From assembly GCF_032341175.1 (NCBI RefSeq), contig NZ_CP135435.1:3596001-3660000 (forward strand): a stretch of DNA of 64,000 bases, given 5' to 3'. Both the position numbers and the translations under genes were made by a program. The notes under the pieces are model-generated. The model ran no database searches. It saw only the letters and a list, made by a program, of their open reading frames with translations, and was not told the origin of the DNA. Every line of letters starts with the position of its first letter. Positions within the stretch are counted from its first letter, which is position 1. Source of the stretch: Bacillus sp. DTU_2020_1000418_1_SI_GHA_SEK_038 (GTDB taxonomy: Bacteria > Bacillota > Bacilli > Bacillales > Cytobacillaceae). Positions 57,420 to 64,000 of this stretch are shown here, one piece after another.

Positions 57420-57920
57420 ATGAACGAAGAAAAAAGTGTAGATTTGATTGAGCAAACAGCGCGCAAATGGCTGCAGGAACGGGGAGTATCAATTCAGGAT
57501 ATTGCAGAATTAGTCTTTTTCCTCCAAGAAAAATATCACCCAGATTTACAAATGTCAGTTTGCATTGAAAATGTGGAACGTGTCCTATCCAAAAGGGAAG
57601 TCCAAAACGCAGTCTTAACTGGCATCCAGCTAGATGTCCTTGCTGAAAAGAAACAACTGTCAGAACCGCTTCAGCATGTAGTTGAAATTGATGAAGGTCT
57701 GTATGGTGTGGACGAGGTACTAGCCTTATCTATTGTGAATGTATATGGATCGATTGGCTTTACTAATTTTGGCTATATTGATAAGTTAAAACCCGGAATA
57801 TTAAAAGATCTGAATGATAAATCCTCTGGAAAAGTCCATACCTTTTTAGATGATATTGTTGGAGCGATTGCAGCGGCTGCATCTAGCCGGTTGGCACATA
57901 GGGCGCATGGGGCAAAGTAA
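57420..57920 (+). CDS. yutG: YutG, phosphatidylglycerophosphatase A-like
   Basis: A 166-residue protein of the PgpA-like family. NIFU-unrelated markers are DIAELVFFLQEKYHPDL (about 19-35), VQNAVLTGIQLDVLAEK and GSIGFTNFGYIDKLKPGILKDL, then FLDDIVGAIAAAASSRLAHR, the conserved C-terminal block. The proposed role is dephosphorylation of phosphatidylglycerophosphate. GTG 57411 is part of the AAGGTGGAG ribosome site, so ATG 57420 is preferred. Confidence 0.88.
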   Translation: MNEEKSVDLIEQTARKWLQERGVSIQDIAELVFFLQEKYHPDLQMSVCIENVERVLSKREVQNAVLTGIQLDVLAEKKQLSEPLQHVVEIDEGLYGVDEVLALSIVNVYGSIGFTNFGYIDKLKPGILKDLNDKSSGKVHTFLDDIVGAIAAAASSRLAHRAHGAK

Positions 57921-57952
57921 AAAAGATGGAGAGCAAGCTCTCCATCTTTTTT
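57920..57952. terminator. Bidirectional terminator between yutG and the sugar cluster
   Basis: AAAAAGATGGAGAG and CTCTCCATCTTTTT around CAAG; A and T runs on both sides. It marks the 3' end of the sugar gene cluster. Confidence 0.92.
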
Positions 57953-57976
57953 ACTGATTCATTTGTTTTTTTCACT

Positions 57977-58645
57977 TTATCTAATCTCTCTAACGAGCAT
58001 AAACGCTTCTGCTGCTTCCACACCAATATGGCTTCCCCAATAATTAGCATGAATTTTAATAGCTTCAAGGGATCTTGGATGTGGGTACTTTCTCATTTCA
58101 CTCTTGTATTCATTAAGTGCCTTCAGCTTTTTTTCTAAGAAACTAGTAATATCTACATACATATTAGGCATAAAAGCCGTATGTCCCTGCTGAACATTCC
58201 ATTCTGTTGAAGAAGGAGTATTATAGCAGATTACTTTCTTAACGGCAAAATCTGCTGATGGGCGAACAGCAACCATTGTAGAGTCAAAAATGACTCGATG
58301 GTCTTTGTTAACATCACCATAGAAGTGTGTGTATACCACTTCGGGCTGAAGCTTATGAATCGCTTTTGTTATTGGATTATTGACTTCAATATGTGCCAGT
58401 GTATCCAGCCTCATGTCAGGGAAATTGACGAAATGTATGTTCCCAATATTCAAAATATCTTTAACCTTTGACATTTCCTTTTTCTTTTGTTTAATCATTT
58501 CTGGCCGATCTTTATATTGAGTAGAAGAGCCTTCTGTTACCATTAAAATGTGCACTTCATCGCCTTGGCTTGTATGCTTGGCAATCGTTCCGCCGAGACC
58601 GAGTATTTCATCATCCGGATGTGCCGCAATCACTAAGACTCTCAT
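57977..58645 (-). CDS. PIG-L/LmbE-family deacetylase
   Basis: A 222-residue zinc-dependent N-deacetylase of the PIG-L family. The AHPDDEILGLGGT motif (about 8-20) supplies His and Asp ligands, and HFYGDVNKDHRVIFDS (about 107-122) supplies the later His. Members remove acetyl groups from N-acetylglucosamine derivatives in surface glycans or small thiols. It overlaps the formyltransferase-like gene by 4 bp (ATGA) and is last in the sugar cluster, so a sugar substrate is likely. Confidence 0.87.
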   Translation of the reverse strand: MRVLVIAAHPDDEILGLGGTIAKHTSQGDEVHILMVTEGSSTQYKDRPEMIKQKKKEMSKVKDILNIGNIHFVNFPDMRLDTLAHIEVNNPITKAIHKLQPEVVYTHFYGDVNKDHRVIFDSTMVAVRPSADFAVKKVICYNTPSSTEWNVQQGHTAFMPNMYVDITSFLEKKLKALNEYKSEMRKYPHPRSLEAIKIHANYWGSHIGVEAAEAFMLVREIR

Positions 58646-59607
58646 GATAACAACTCCTCAATTAATTCTGCCAGATTAATTCCTAGCTTATATCCAATTA
58701 AACTAATGAAATCACCACTTATTCCATTATTGCCTTCATATGATACTTCCTTAAGTTCAAGGACGCCATCAATTGTCTTTATCCACACTGTCTGACTCTC
58801 TGTAACTTTTAGAATTTGTCCTGGAATGGCAATAAATTCAGTTGATTTCACTATAGATGCTTCCCAAATGATAAGCTTTTTCTTCTTATAATAAGTATAA
58901 GCTCCCGGATACGGGTATGTTGTCGCTCGGATTAGCCTGTCAATTTCATGTGTACTCATTGTCTCCCAATTAATAAAGCCGTCAGTCGGAATACGTTTTG
59001 TCGTGTAAGTCGCCAGATTCTCACTTTGAGGAGTGGCACTGACTGTTCCTTTTTTTACATGTGGGGCAATTTCTTTTAATATGTCTCTAAGACTGCAAAC
59101 AGCCTTATTATAGAGAGTCTTGGATGTTTCATTAGGATGTATAGTAAATTGCCTTTGAGATATAATGGCTCCTGAGTCTGCACCTTCCTCCAAGTAGAAA
59201 ACACTCATGCCACTTATTTTATCTTCATTTATGATTGCCCACGGTAACGAGGCTCTTCCGCGGCCTTTTGGAAGTAATGATGGATGAGCGCCAATACACC
59301 CTAAAGGTGGAAGGTCCAAGATTTCTCGCTTTACTAGTTGAGAGAGGCCAATAACAAAAATATAATCTGGAGCCATTATTCTTAGTTTATGAATGACATG
59401 CTCATCGTTTACATTTCTGAAGGTGTAATATGGCACGAAGAACCTTTCACAAAGAGGCTTTAAATCTGCATAATCTGAAACACCTTTCGAATAGGCCTTA
59501 TCCAGCGTAAAAACACCTGTTATACCTACCTGATTCTCCAATAATTCTTCCAAAGCTTCATAGCTAGACATAACCGTCCCAATAAATGCTGCCTTCTTTA
59601 TTGTCAT
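58642..59607 (-). CDS. Formyltransferase-fold enzyme with altered catalytic motif
   Basis: About 321 residues: an N-terminal formyltransferase domain (about 5-190) and a C-terminal OB-like domain (about 210-300), as in methionyl-tRNA and sugar N-formyltransferases. The catalytic His (about 109) and Asp (about 145, EEGADSG) are present in GAHPSLLPKGRGRASLPWAI, but the Asn expected two residues before the His is Gly. The gene neighbours indicate an amino-sugar substrate, the amine made by the adjacent DegT aminotransferase. The start is ATG 59607 (or GTG 59610); the ribosome site is weak. Confidence 0.8.
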   Translation of the reverse strand: MTIKKAAFIGTVMSSYEALEELLENQVGITGVFTLDKAYSKGVSDYADLKPLCERFFVPYYTFRNVNDEHVIHKLRIMAPDYIFVIGLSQLVKREILDLPPLGCIGAHPSLLPKGRGRASLPWAIINEDKISGMSVFYLEEGADSGAIISQRQFTIHPNETSKTLYNKAVCSLRDILKEIAPHVKKGTVSATPQSENLATYTTKRIPTDGFINWETMSTHEIDRLIRATTYPYPGAYTYYKKKKLIIWEASIVKSTEFIAIPGQILKVTESQTVWIKTIDGVLELKEVSYEGNNGISGDFISLIGYKLGINLAELIEELLS

Positions 59608-59635
59608 CACCTGCTTTTATGATGATGGGCCCCAT

Positions 59636-60781
59636 TCATAAACCTAATTCTAGGGCTATTTTAAAATTTTCAATCACTCGATACTGATCCTCTAAAGTTA
59701 GATTCGATCCTGAAGGAATGCAAATCCCACGATTAAATAAGTCGATAGAAAAGTTTTTATTTTCAAAATGATTATAGCAATGATAATCCTTGAATACTGG
59801 CTGCAGATGTAATGGTTTCCAAATGGGTCTAGCCTCGATATTTTTTTCACTTAAAAATTTTATCAATTTATTTGGGCTAATTTTGATTATTTTGCTATCC
59901 ATTGTAAGAGCAGTTAACCATCTATTTGACTTTGTCTCCTTTAATTCAGGCATAAATTCTATACCTGGTATATTTCCTAATTCCGACATGTATCTTTCGA
60001 ATACTTTCCTTCTTAAATGTATTCGCTCTTCCAGCCCTTCAAGCTGTGCTCTGCCTACCCCTGCTAATAAATTACTCATTCGATAATTATAACCAACATA
60101 TTTATGTTCATAATGAATTTCCGGTTCTCTTGCCTGTGCCGCTAAAAACCTTGCTCTTTTTAATTCATCGAGATTGTCTGAAACGAGTGCCCCTCCACCT
60201 GATGTGGTAATGATTTTATTGCCATTAAAAGAATAAATTCCAAATTCACCAAAGGTTCCAGTTTGCTTTCCTTTATATAAACTTCCCATTGATTCTGCAG
60301 CATCTTCAATGATCGGAATGCTATAATAGCCGCATATATTTAGGATTTCGTCTAATTTAGCAGGCTGGCCAAATAAATGAACAACAATTACCGCTTTAGG
60401 TAATTTATTATTTTTCTTTGCATCATCCAAAGCTTTTTCTAACGCTGCAGGAGAAATATTCCATGTATCTGGTTCGGAATCTATAAAAATAGGAGTAGCA
60501 CCTTGATATACAATTGGATTGGCACTTGCAATAAAAGTTAGAGTCGAACAAAAGACGGTATCCCCTTTACCTACCCCGAGTAAATTAAGTGCCAAATGTA
60601 TGGCAGCTGTGCCAGAACTTAATGCTACTGCGTCCTTAGAACCAACATACTGAGTGATTTCCTTTTCAAAGTGATCAACATTTGGTCCGAGTGGAGCTAC
60701 CCAATTAGATTCAAAAGATTGATTAATATACTCTTTCTCCTTCCCAGTCATATGCGGAGTGGAAAGATAGATTTTTTTCAT
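59636..60781 (-). CDS. DegT/DnrJ/EryC1/StrS-family sugar aminotransferase
   Basis: A 381-residue PLP enzyme that installs an amino group on a nucleotide-linked keto sugar, using glutamate as donor. The PLP lysine is in YSFNGNKIITTSGGGAL (about 180-196), with VEDAAESMGSLYKGKQTGTFG just before it (about 160-176 split around GSLYKG). The CSTLTFIASANPIVYQGATPIFID segment is at about 79-101. It follows a 4,6-dehydratase-like gene, so the product is probably a UDP-4-amino-4,6-dideoxy sugar, as with Campylobacter PglE. AGAGGTG precedes the ATG. Confidence 0.9.
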   Translation of the reverse strand: MKKIYLSTPHMTGKEKEYINQSFESNWVAPLGPNVDHFEKEITQYVGSKDAVALSSGTAAIHLALNLLGVGKGDTVFCSTLTFIASANPIVYQGATPIFIDSEPDTWNISPAALEKALDDAKKNNKLPKAVIVVHLFGQPAKLDEILNICGYYSIPIIEDAAESMGSLYKGKQTGTFGEFGIYSFNGNKIITTSGGGALVSDNLDELKRARFLAAQAREPEIHYEHKYVGYNYRMSNLLAGVGRAQLEGLEERIHLRRKVFERYMSELGNIPGIEFMPELKETKSNRWLTALTMDSKIIKISPNKLIKFLSEKNIEARPIWKPLHLQPVFKDYHCYNHFENKNFSIDLFNRGICIPSGSNLTLEDQYRVIENFKIALELGL

Positions 60782-60808: not shown

Positions 60809-62440
60809 TCATATCACACTTCGATAAGGCGGAAAGTAATTAGGATTATAGGAATCTTGTTTCTTGGCCAGCTCATTTAATTGTTGGAAAATATTCTCAT
60901 TATATATTTTTGTTCCTAAATAGTAAGAATAGTATGGGATATTAGAAAAGGATGATTTAAATCGAAATAACCCGTCATCTCCTCCGTATCCTCCACCGAG
61001 ATGAAGCAGTTTTGCTCCTCTTTCCTGAGAAAATTTAATCATAAAATCAAATAGGTAATTATTCGGTCTTAAGTGCAAATAATCGCTATCAGAAGCTCCA
61101 AATTGATAGTGGGCAAATTCCTTACCAATTAATAAAACCACTGCTGCAATTACTCGTTCTTGATAGTGTACGAATAAAAGATATGACTTATATAATGGAT
61201 CTTCTGCTAACAATTCACTAAAAAAGTCTCTAGAAAAATAGTAGTTTGCATTTGCATTATTTCTCTTCATCGTTTGTTCATATAATTGATGAAAGATAGC
61301 CATATTATCTGGTGTTTTAGGAACTGAATTTGCACTCATCCCCATTTTTTGTGCTCTTTTAATATTTCGCTGATTATTAGTAGAATATGCTTTCCATATA
61401 TCCCAATATGGTTTTTGAAGATCAACGGCAGCAGTATTCATAAGGAACCGAATGTTTGCCACGTTTTTAACATATTCCTGATTGTCGTTTAAAGGATGTA
61501 GCCGGATTGTCTCTGTAACAATATGATATTTATTGCAATATTGAGAGAATAAAGAGTAAAAGTCATCAATCTCCTGAATATCTCCTTCCATAATAGGACC
61601 TCCGTACCCATATGGAGTAACTATATCTTTATATTGATTATCTAAAAACGGAATATCTCGCAAAATGAACGGGTATAACATTTTTGTATGATGACTCTCG
61701 TAAAATGCAGCTTTCGCTTTTCCTTTTTCAATCTTGGCAAAAGCTTGAGCGTACTTTGGAGAATAAAATATATCTAAATCATTAAACTTGGCTATTGCTT
61801 CCTTCCATTCTGCCTCCGACTCTAAAATTCTAAATTTGCTCACGTCTGGAGTCTCTGTTCCTGTAAAATAGTACATAGTCGCATGGCCTTCATAGTTAAT
61901 GCCCTCTTTCTTTAGGACTTTCTTTAAGGTAAGAAATAGAATCTTTAAATCTAACAAAAGACTTTGATTTTCCACATACCATACATCTAGTTTAAACCTT
62001 TCGTCCCATGGTACATTATTTCTGCCATTTACTTGTGCCCACCCAGTAATGCCTGGACGGACTAGATGCCTTTTTGCCTGTTCGGAATTATAGAGTGGGA
62101 GGTATTCCATTAGTAAAGGTCTTGGACCAACTAAACTAAGGTCTCCCTTTATGACGTTAATGAGCTGTGGCAATTCGTCCAAACTATATTTCCTTATCCA
62201 TTGGCCAAAAGGGGTTATCCGCTCTTCATCAGGCAATAAGTTGCCATTTTCATCCTTCAAGTCTGTCATGGATCGAAATTTATATAAATAAAATGGCTTT
62301 TCCAGATAACCCGGCCGAAGCTGTTTAAAGATGATCGGAGACCCTAATTTAACATAAACCATCATAGATAGAATCATTAATATGGGGGAAAGGATGATGA
62401 ATAAGAAGACAGCCATTAGAAGATCTATACATCTTTTCAT
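60809..62440 (-). CDS. Fusion: phosphoglycosyltransferase (PglC type) + FemAB/GNAT-like domain
   Basis: A 543-residue protein. Residues 1 to ~195 form a bacterial sugar transferase: an N-terminal membrane hairpin (LLMAVFLFIILSPILMI), KFRSMTD, SLDELPQLINVIKGDLSLVGPRP and RPGITGWAQVNGRN. It transfers a sugar-1-phosphate to undecaprenyl phosphate. Residues ~200-543 match a FemAB/GNAT-like acyl/aminoacyl transferase: YAQAFAKIEKGKAKAAFY, NNQRNIKRAQKMGM, YYFSRDFFSELL, and GGGYGGDDGLFRFKSSFS near the end. ATG 62440 is preferred because GGAG lies 9 nt upstream. The fusion is unusual; the two halves probably act on one lipid-linked sugar. Confidence 0.85.
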   Translation of the reverse strand: MKRCIDLLMAVFLFIILSPILMILSMMVYVKLGSPIIFKQLRPGYLEKPFYLYKFRSMTDLKDENGNLLPDEERITPFGQWIRKYSLDELPQLINVIKGDLSLVGPRPLLMEYLPLYNSEQAKRHLVRPGITGWAQVNGRNNVPWDERFKLDVWYVENQSLLLDLKILFLTLKKVLKKEGINYEGHATMYYFTGTETPDVSKFRILESEAEWKEAIAKFNDLDIFYSPKYAQAFAKIEKGKAKAAFYESHHTKMLYPFILRDIPFLDNQYKDIVTPYGYGGPIMEGDIQEIDDFYSLFSQYCNKYHIVTETIRLHPLNDNQEYVKNVANIRFLMNTAAVDLQKPYWDIWKAYSTNNQRNIKRAQKMGMSANSVPKTPDNMAIFHQLYEQTMKRNNANANYYFSRDFFSELLAEDPLYKSYLLFVHYQERVIAAVVLLIGKEFAHYQFGASDSDYLHLRPNNYLFDFMIKFSQERGAKLLHLGGGYGGDDGLFRFKSSFSNIPYYSYYLGTKIYNENIFQQLNELAKKQDSYNPNYFPPYRSVI

Positions 62441-62488
62441 AATTTCAATCTCCATTATAATTAAAATTCAATGGGCAGAGCTCAGGCC

Positions 62489-64000
62489 TTAGCCTTTACT
62501 TGATTTCTGCCTAACGATTCTTAATAATTGCTTTCTAATTTCCTCTTTTGTCATATGTTTATATTCTAATATTAGCTTTTCAATCGGTTTAACATTGAAG
62601 AAACTGCCTTTGCCAATATAAATATTCGAATGTACCTGTCTATCAATTATTTCATCTGATGCGAGAAGTTCCTCAAATAATTTTTCACCCGGGCGTATCC
62701 CTGTAAAAGTAATTTCGATATCTTCTGTCTTATAGCCTGATAACCGGATTAAATTGTGAACAAGGTCAACAATTTTCACCGGATGGCCCATATCAAGAAT
62801 AAAAATTTCTCCGCCCTTTGCTATCGCACCTGCTTGAATGACTAATCTTGCAGCTTCTGGGATAGTCATGAAATACCGCACCATATCGGGATGAGTCACG
62901 GTTATTGGACCGCCATTTTTGATTTGCTTGATAAAAAGCGGAATCGCACTTCCTCTGCTTCCTAAAACATTGCCAAATCTCACTGCCACAAATTTCGTCT
63001 CGCTTTTTGCATTAAAATCTTGAACAATCATTTCCGCCAGCCTCTTTGAGGCGCCCATTACTCCTGTTGGATTCACCGCTTTATCTGTTGAGATCATAAC
63101 GAAAATACCAACCTTATGAACATGAGAGGCTTCAGCTACATTCTTTGTACCAATCACGTTATTTTTCAAAGCTTCATCAGGATTCCTTTCCATTAGGTGG
63201 ACATGTTTATGTGCTGCAGCATGGTAAATAATATCAGGGTGATATTTACCAATAATTTCAAATATCTTTTCGCGGTTCTGAATATCAGCTATTTCAGCAA
63301 TACAAGTTAACTGGTCCCCAAACTTTTCCTTCATTTCTAAGTCAATGTTATAAATGCTATTCTCCCCGTGCCCTAACAGAATCATTTTTCCTGGTTTAAA
63401 CTTTGCAACTTGCCTGCAAATTTCTGATCCAATAGACCCCCCTGCACCCGTTACTAAAATCACTTTCCCAAATATTGAATCACTAATACTCAAATCATCT
63501 AGAATAACAGGGTCTCTTCCTAATAAATCTTCGAACTGGATATCATGGACATCATTAAATGACCGTTTTCCTTCAATGATATCTTCAAGCATAGGCATTT
63601 TTTGTGTTTTGATATTTGTTTTTACACATTTAGTAAGAATTTCATTTAACTGATGTTTCTTTAAAGAAGGAATCGCAATAACAATCCGATCTATATTGAA
63701 CTTAGACACGACTGTTTCAATATCATTCGTTGTCCCTACTACCGGGACGCCATAAATATCAAGCTTTTGTTTATCAGGATCATCATCAATAAAAGCAACA
63801 GGGTGAAATCTGATGGAACTTGTTGTAATTAAATGTCTAACTAACATCGTCCCAGCTGAACCAGCACCGATAATGAGCGTTCTTTTATAATTTAAATGAT
63901 CCCAATCAATTGGGGTTAACGATACTTTCCAAAGAAATCGAACTCCGCTATTGAACAATGAAAACACAATTGAAAATATGAAAAGCAAACGAAAACTAAT
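62489..64000 (-). CDS. Nucleoside-diphosphate-sugar 4,6-dehydratase (PglF/CapD type), 5' end outside window
   Basis: The frame is open to the right edge, so the N-terminal membrane helices are only partly included (about the last 503 residues are visible). A first Rossmann-like domain has TLIIGAGSAGTMLVRHL. The catalytic SDR domain has VTGAGGSIGSEICRQV, HAAAHKHVHLMERNPDEALKNN in its active-site region, and STDKAVNPTGVMGASKRLAEM, where Met replaces the classical Tyr before the Lys, as in PglF. It makes the UDP-4-keto-6-deoxy sugar for the downstream aminotransferase. Confidence 0.9.
   Translation of the reverse strand: MSFRLLFIFSIVFSLFNSGVRFLWKVSLTPIDWDHLNYKRTLIIGAGSAGTMLVRHLITTSSIRFHPVAFIDDDPDKQKLDIYGVPVVGTTNDIETVVSKFNIDRIVIAIPSLKKHQLNEILTKCVKTNIKTQKMPMLEDIIEGKRSFNDVHDIQFEDLLGRDPVILDDLSISDSIFGKVILVTGAGGSIGSEICRQVAKFKPGKMILLGHGENSIYNIDLEMKEKFGDQLTCIAEIADIQNREKIFEIIGKYHPDIIYHAAAHKHVHLMERNPDEALKNNVIGTKNVAEASHVHKVGIFVMISTDKAVNPTGVMGASKRLAEMIVQDFNAKSETKFVAVRFGNVLGSRGSAIPLFIKQIKNGGPITVTHPDMVRYFMTIPEAARLVIQAGAIAKGGEIFILDMGHPVKIVDLVHNLIRLSGYKTEDIEITFTGIRPGEKLFEELLASDEIIDRQVHSNIYIGKGSFFNVKPIEKLILEYKHMTKEEIRKQLLRIVRQKSSKG

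Follow-up and report, generated by a model that had tools for sequence, protein, structure and literature searches.

Neisseria PglB is described as a single chain that N-acylates UDP-4-amino-trideoxy-N-acetylglucosamine and passes the phosphosugar to undecaprenyl phosphate, and PglB2, linked to a 4-glyceramido sugar, as a phosphoglycosyl transferase (PGT) with a distinct C-terminal domain (PMC6959607). In Bacillus subtilis, EpsC, EpsN and EpsM have been assigned to the synthesis of UDP-N,N'-diacetylbacillosamine and EpsL to the transfer of that sugar to undecaprenyl phosphate (PMC10653937), and the polymer is reported to contain QuiNAc4NAc (PMC11447030). Here, we describe a gene of Bacillus sp. 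DTU_2020_1000418_1_SI_GHA_SEK_038 that encodes a PGT fused in frame to a FemAB-like domain, located in a 64,000-nucleotide stretch (RefSeq assembly GCF_032341175.1, contig NZ_CP135435.1, positions 3,596,001 to 3,660,000; hereafter the window, with coordinates counted from its first letter). The acyl module is a left-handed beta-helix (LbH) in PglB and an ATP-grasp domain in PglB2; the window protein, known to us by its architecture, likewise joins a PGT and an acyltransferase-family domain in one chain, but its acyl module is predicted to be a FemX-type double GNAT. The locus resembles the B. subtilis EpsL-EpsM system in its eps operon with an epsC RNA, its dehydratase/aminotransferase pair and a PGT of the same family, and differs in that the place of EpsM is taken by the fused FemAB, no full-length EpsM match being found in the genome. 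Whether the fusion is a PglB-like bifunctional enzyme that starts an eps-type exopolysaccharide, its acetyltransferase replaced by a FemX-type N-acyltransferase, is in our judgment an evenly balanced proposition. Fusions of PGTs to acyltransferases are already known; what appears to be new here is a FemX-type module in such a fusion and FemAB in place of EpsM. Neither was found in the CC-licensed literature, covered mainly through titles and the beginnings of abstracts; such fusions may be in print in a 2021 PNAS study of PGT networks.

The fusion gene lies on the minus strand (60809..62455; ATG at 62455, stop at 60809-60811) as a single open frame of 548 codons, encoding 548 amino acids, while the plus strand of 60809-62440 carries stops throughout. 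A sequence-only reading of this DNA had placed the gene at 60809..62440 without naming a strand; its frame stands, and its end point moves to 62455, position 62440 being the in-frame codon for Met6. The host genome assembly consists of one contig of 4,468,467 bases. A second genome of the same genus (G002; fusion at L144:9570-11219) also carries an uninterrupted fusion, open over its whole length and 69% identical to that of the window. The frame error that the sequence-only reading had named as a way of joining two separate genes has left no sign and appears unlikely, because G002 keeps the same fusion at this identity and further PGT-FemAB fusions occur among the retrieved proteins; the fused frame in the window is confirmed.

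Database proteins for both fusion genomes begin inside the open reading frame (ORF) and comprise the FemAB half alone (P0001, 355 amino acids, starting at Met194 of the window ORF; P0002, 345 amino acids), in a protein search whose length filter would have hidden a separately listed PGT half. The internal ATG of the G002 fusion is preceded, at a distance of 8 nucleotides, by a Shine-Dalgarno-like GAAGGA, while inspection of the window sequence revealed no comparably clear site before its internal start. The GAAGGA may be a remnant of a ribosome site that lay between two genes; together with the internal ATG, it may also allow the FemAB half to be produced as a protein of its own beside the fusion. 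The PGT and FemAB genes of six unfused relatives are separated by 5 to 60 nucleotides. Five Neobacillus/Bacillus loci (L005-L008, L076), which initially matched over residues 4-546 or 6-546 in a scan of named genomes, were rejected as full-length fusions, each consisting of two separate adjacent genes.

The domain assignments of the sequence-only reading, a full PglC/WcaJ-type sugar transferase over the first ~195 residues and FemAB-like segments over the remaining ~345 in the same frame, are borne out. Residues 1-190 (61886..62455, minus strand) include a Bac_transf match (PF02397, residues 7-182, 1.8e-62), the first half of an AlphaFold model of the fusion (predicted local distance difference test, pLDDT, 92.6) matches PglC, and Asp93-Glu94 (62174..62179, minus strand), at the position of what we take to be the PglC catalytic dyad, is invariant in 8 of 8 aligned fusions. 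By domain match, predicted fold and dyad, the first half is a full PglC/EpsL-type monotopic PGT. It is joined to the second by a linker (residues 191-205; 61841..61885, minus strand) that contains the sole stretch of the model with pLDDT below 50 (residues 191-204).

Residues 206-548 (60812..61840, minus strand) were delimited as a FemAB-like double-GNAT domain by Pfam, FemX alignment and the AlphaFold model. Pfam matches to Acetyltransf_6 (PF13480, residues 362-490, 9.5e-14) and FemAB (PF02388, 6.1e-13, best stretch 432-504) agree with the structure prediction, which had likewise been proposed as a check, on a FemAB/GNAT fold; as modelled, this half is a complete double GNAT fold of the FemX type, and its closest structural neighbours are FemX and other aminoacyl-tRNA-dependent enzymes. 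A profile built from 31 FemAB sequences, that of the window among them, aligns to the FemX structure 1ne9 (1.4e-8) and places Lys500 (60956..60958, minus strand) at Lys305 of Weissella FemX, a residue described as catalytic (PMC12945691). All 31 profile sequences have a lysine there, as counted along the printed alignment, as do 67 of 69 FemAB domains in a wider set that includes the window (one Glu, one gap). FemX Arg211, which presumably binds UDP-MurNAc-pentapeptide, falls on Phe in the fusion's FemAB family, by a manual count beside a gap in a weak, low-identity alignment.

The acetyl-coenzyme A (CoA) motif of GNATs is a [QR]xxGx[GA] loop after strand 4. A motif scan found no match to it in the window FemAB half; matches occur in 3 of the 31 relatives, only near the N-terminus, in 7 of 36 FemAB genes of fetched loci (five only at 36-43; L173 and L175 also at 242), and in six of eight small neighbouring genes taken as GNATs or candidate GNATs, two of the eight being confirmed by Pfam. 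No Pfam match to the EpsM/PglD signature (PglD_N plus LbH) was obtained in the fusion at E 0.01. The polysaccharide-linked XrtA/PEP-CTERM system also has a FemAB-like family (TIGR03019, NCBIfam), but the fusion is not a member of it, matching weakly (9e-8) and scoring 31.5 bits where the cut-off is 260.35.

Structure comparison gave 12-17% identity between the window half and the peptidoglycan enzymes FemX and FemA, and the streptothricin-type enzymes Orf11, Sba18 and Sbb17 lie in the same range; unlike all of these, the window half shares its chain with a PGT and is encoded in an operon for exopolysaccharide, and the Arg211 position of FemX is apparently not kept in it. Orf11 is described as converting streptothrisamine and Gly-tRNA to glycylthricin, and structures of Sba18 and Sbb17 with streptothrisamine are reported. 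Streptothrisamine bears an aminosugar, so these enzymes provide a precedent for a FemX-type protein that aminoacylates such an acceptor. Caulobacter HfsK is likewise a FemAB-like protein of polysaccharide synthesis, a proposed acyltransferase that is membrane-associated when active, but it stands alone, is controlled by c-di-GMP, serves the holdfast and, as far as described, is not tied to an EpsM slot (PMC5362036).

To place the fusion among its relatives, we recorded what stands between the PGT and aminotransferase genes (the EpsM slot) in 193 genomes of the same bacterial family. These hold 129 PGT places in 114 genomes, the window's being one; 107 were fetched, 21 of low identity were not, and ORF picking kept 103 of the 107 (losses in L152, L215, L218 and L244). 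In 78 cases the PGT was followed within three genes by an aminotransferase sharing at least 55% identity with that of the window, and these were counted as slots. An LbH acetyltransferase of the EpsM/PglD type occupies 42 of them and is fused to the aminotransferase in one more; FemAB occupies 12 (alone in six, with an unknown or GNAT gene in five, as a fusion in one); the others hold nothing (19), ATP-grasp plus HAD (2), a formyltransferase (1) or another gene (1). LbH and FemAB never share a slot (0/78). The presence of FemAB was the sole reason for fetching seven low-identity places, among which are the five GNAT+FemAB slots, and FemAB accounts for 7 of 73 slots once those five are left out; the GNAT was checked by Pfam in one of the five and has the CoA motif in four. 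The slots are related by descent and not independent, and hence no probability is attached to this pattern.

A whole-genome search with EpsM of G007 found no full-length match in the window genome (G000) or G002; matches in both were partial, confined to query positions 111-209 (E 4e-9 to 5e-9), with a further one in G000 at a WbpD-like gene (5.7e-7). G007 itself gave 7.3e-136 and G020 9.9e-124. Among eight genomes covered in this way (the window's, G002 and the six with plain FemAB slots), one has a full-length match (G115, 36%, on another contig). A second set, from the scan of named genomes, retained 80 of 162 loci, any DegT match being accepted as an aminotransferase. The 79 with a PGT (all but L050) hold LbH (45), LbH plus an unknown gene (2), a WbpD-like LbH (1), FemAB (4), ATP-grasp with HAD (4), ATP-grasp alone (1), nothing (10) or no aminotransferase (12), and all four FemAB loci belong to genomes already in the first set. 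Across both sets, the EpsM slot of L009, L014, L036, L064, L071, L190 and L199 contains an ATP-grasp gene, which resembles PylC in L009 and in most of these loci is accompanied by a HAD hydrolase; it is possibly another acyl cassette.

The search for this domain pair among relatives that had been suggested in the sequence-only reading returned 39 FemAB matches in 36 of the 193 genomes. Only in G000 and G002 does the open frame around the match exceed 407 amino acids; the fusion is rare in the family. At least seven further PGT-FemAB fusions are present among 197 proteins retrieved from a database of 5.8 billion, one of them (P0121) with FemAB first; each of the two protein searches covered the 120 top-scoring matches out of over 7000, so the fusion counts are minima. 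In a tree of 69 FemAB domains (FastTree, midpoint rooted, read without branch support values), fusions fall in four places (window and G002; P0005 and P0006; P0049; P0030, P0009, P0015 and P0121), for which several independent fusions would be the simplest reading. Precomputed Pfam domains place PGTs in one chain with LbH (P0037), formyltransferase (P0066), ATP-grasp (P0056) or FemAB (P0005), and the earlier statement that the partner is normally an acetyltransferase or kinase was therefore too narrow. Amide or formamide bond formation is well documented for many members of the FemAB, formyltransferase and ATP-grasp families. Three proteins with high profile scores (P0003, P0004, P0035) were rejected as PGT-FemAB fusions, having two PGT copies and no FemAB match. 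An acyl-carrier domain was also observed in the PGT chain P0032, and P0035 is named for one too and has an acyl-carrier end; among the matches listed, PF04266, which we take to be ASCH, lies within the PGT chains P0079, P0118, P0151, P0155, P0183, P0186 and P0196.

The operon itself, all on the minus strand, runs from an EpsC/PglF-like UDP-GlcNAc 4,6-dehydratase (62489..64000, continuing past the window end; PF02719, 2.9e-118; PF13727, 1.3e-10) through the fusion to an EpsN/PglE-like DegT aminotransferase (59636..60781; PF01041, 3.7e-99), a formyltransferase of the ArnA-N/Fmt type (58642..59610; PF00551, PF02911; PRK08125 as the top NCBIfam model, scoring under its cut-off) and, as its last gene, a PIG-L family de-N-acetylase (57977..58645; PF02585, 6.9e-30). 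A terminator-like inverted repeat of 18 pairs follows (57916..57955), with the longest stem of six such sites found (4.4 expected in shuffles). An epsC RNA (EAR; RF01735, 106.8 bits; L003:13302-13411, minus strand), together with the EpsC/EpsN-type dehydratase/aminotransferase pair, marks the operon by sequence as eps-type. Upstream, ORFs in L003 were read as glycosyltransferases, a Wzx flippase, a WbpA/WecB/WbpE/WbpD-type set (including the WbpD-like LbH gene, L003:3024-3731) and tyrosine-kinase genes; Pfam identifies a WbqC-family gene (L003:1678-2990) adjoining a second PIG-L deacetylase, a DUF7033 protein gene (L003:7120-8493) and a second FemAB-like gene (PF13480; L003:8472-9452), in which, by eye, the FK motif of FemX is lacking. 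In the G002 cluster (L144), an 81% identical PIG-L gene lies immediately upstream of the dehydratase. A constant association of PIG-L with the FemAB family was rejected, the two fused loci being the only fetched FemAB loci with a match.

We infer the following route. The EpsC-like and EpsN-like neighbours would make UDP-2-acetamido-4-amino-2,4,6-trideoxyglucose, the FemAB-like half would N-acylate the 4-amino group of this first sugar, most likely by aminoacylation from tRNA, and the PGT half would afterwards pass the acyl-amino sugar 1-phosphate to undecaprenyl phosphate, the fusion holding both steps on one membrane-anchored chain. The sequence-only reading had proposed that a lipid-linked first sugar is aminoacylated or acylated at the membrane: (amino)acyl transfer to the first sugar is still the best reading, but as acceptor the UDP-4-amino sugar before lipid transfer is at least as likely as the lipid-linked one, because of the EpsC-EpsN pair and the EpsM slot, and as in Neisseria PglB. 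Support for aminoacyl-tRNA use is indirect, coming from the structural neighbours of the model and from the lack of a CoA loop match. The fuller proposal, in which a tRNA-charged amino acid is placed on the 4-amine of a bacillosamine-type first sugar, its alpha-amine possibly being capped, and the EpsM slot is a swappable acyl cassette (LbH, FemAB, ATP-grasp or formyl, all of which also occur in PGT fusions), is one we advance tentatively, rating it somewhat below an even chance; that the formyltransferase in the window, and the GNAT in the five GNAT+FemAB slots, would provide the cap is speculation.

Several observations weigh against this interpretation. The 19 empty slots imply that a slot acyltransferase is not obligatory, and the GNAT+FemAB slots stem from PGT places fetched for their FemAB, while 21 low-identity places remained unfetched. 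In L177 (Neobacillus drentensis; also L076), three consecutive genes encode a PGT, a FemAB and an LbH protein 30% like PglD, so that FemAB and LbH can be neighbours; this region (10580) has no aminotransferase within three genes, lies outside the 78, and is the only such pair seen beside a PGT. Only 15 of the 36 FemAB genes of L144-L177 directly precede an aminotransferase, and FemAB genes are also found elsewhere, away from one. The low identity to FemX and FemA counts here as well, and the predicted fold does not prove the donor. Within the operon, the formyltransferase could cap the 4-amine, and the WbpD-like LbH gene is a weak EpsM match; no biochemical data on any member of the fusion's FemAB family were found.

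It is possible, though doubtful, that the FemAB half is a plain non-orthologous replacement of EpsM, acylating the 4-amine (with acetyl, for example) from acyl-CoA or acyl carrier protein without any tRNA. FemAB does occupy the EpsM slot and never with EpsM there (78 slots), GNATs as a group are described as using acyl-CoA (PMC4964394), and for HfsK, as a FemAB-like polysaccharide enzyme, the donor is described as not established (PMC5362036); however, the canonical acetyl-CoA loop was not seen at its expected place, the FemX lysine is conserved, and the nearest structural neighbours depend on aminoacyl-tRNA. We regard as improbable a role on the 2-amine, freed by the operon's PIG-L, with the formyltransferase capping the 4-amine. 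In its favour, both fused loci have a PIG-L gene, to which BLAST found no match in what was fetched of the remaining 33 FemAB loci, and acyltransferase action on deacetylase-freed amines has been suggested for HfsK/HfsH (PMC5362036). Yet unfused slot relatives have FemAB with no PIG-L or formyltransferase match nearby, implying that the shared job of the family needs neither, and G002 has no formyltransferase match (n = 2).

Some more distant FemAB genes (L162, L163, L168, L173) lie away from PGT and aminotransferase genes, and certain peptidoglycan FemAB enzymes are generally known to act on lipid II; the half might thus modify another acceptor, a later repeat sugar or lipid II, with the PGT serving for membrane location only. 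The slot position and the failure to find EpsM speak against such a role, as does the Phe that a manual count along the weak alignment places at the FemX Arg211 position, and we consider it quite improbable. Least credible, to the point of being hardly worth entertaining, is a non-functional fusion, arising from a lost stop or a sequencing error, with FemAB made from the internal start. The FemAB-only database proteins of both genomes and the GAAGGA of G002 would fit it, but the open frame is kept in two genomes 31% apart, both halves retain their motifs, and other PGT-FemAB fusions exist; since the frame stays open from one half into the other, a ribosome that begins at the PGT start can only make the fusion.

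If aminoacylation by the fusion is correct, the first committed step towards a biofilm exopolysaccharide would draw on the charged tRNA of the cell, and a swap of one gene between the PGT and the aminotransferase could alter how the first sugar is decorated. The proposal also gives a FemAB-like family, named 'lipid II:glycine glycyltransferase FemX' in databases, a function that can be tested, in an enzyme on whose single chain both steps can be assayed.
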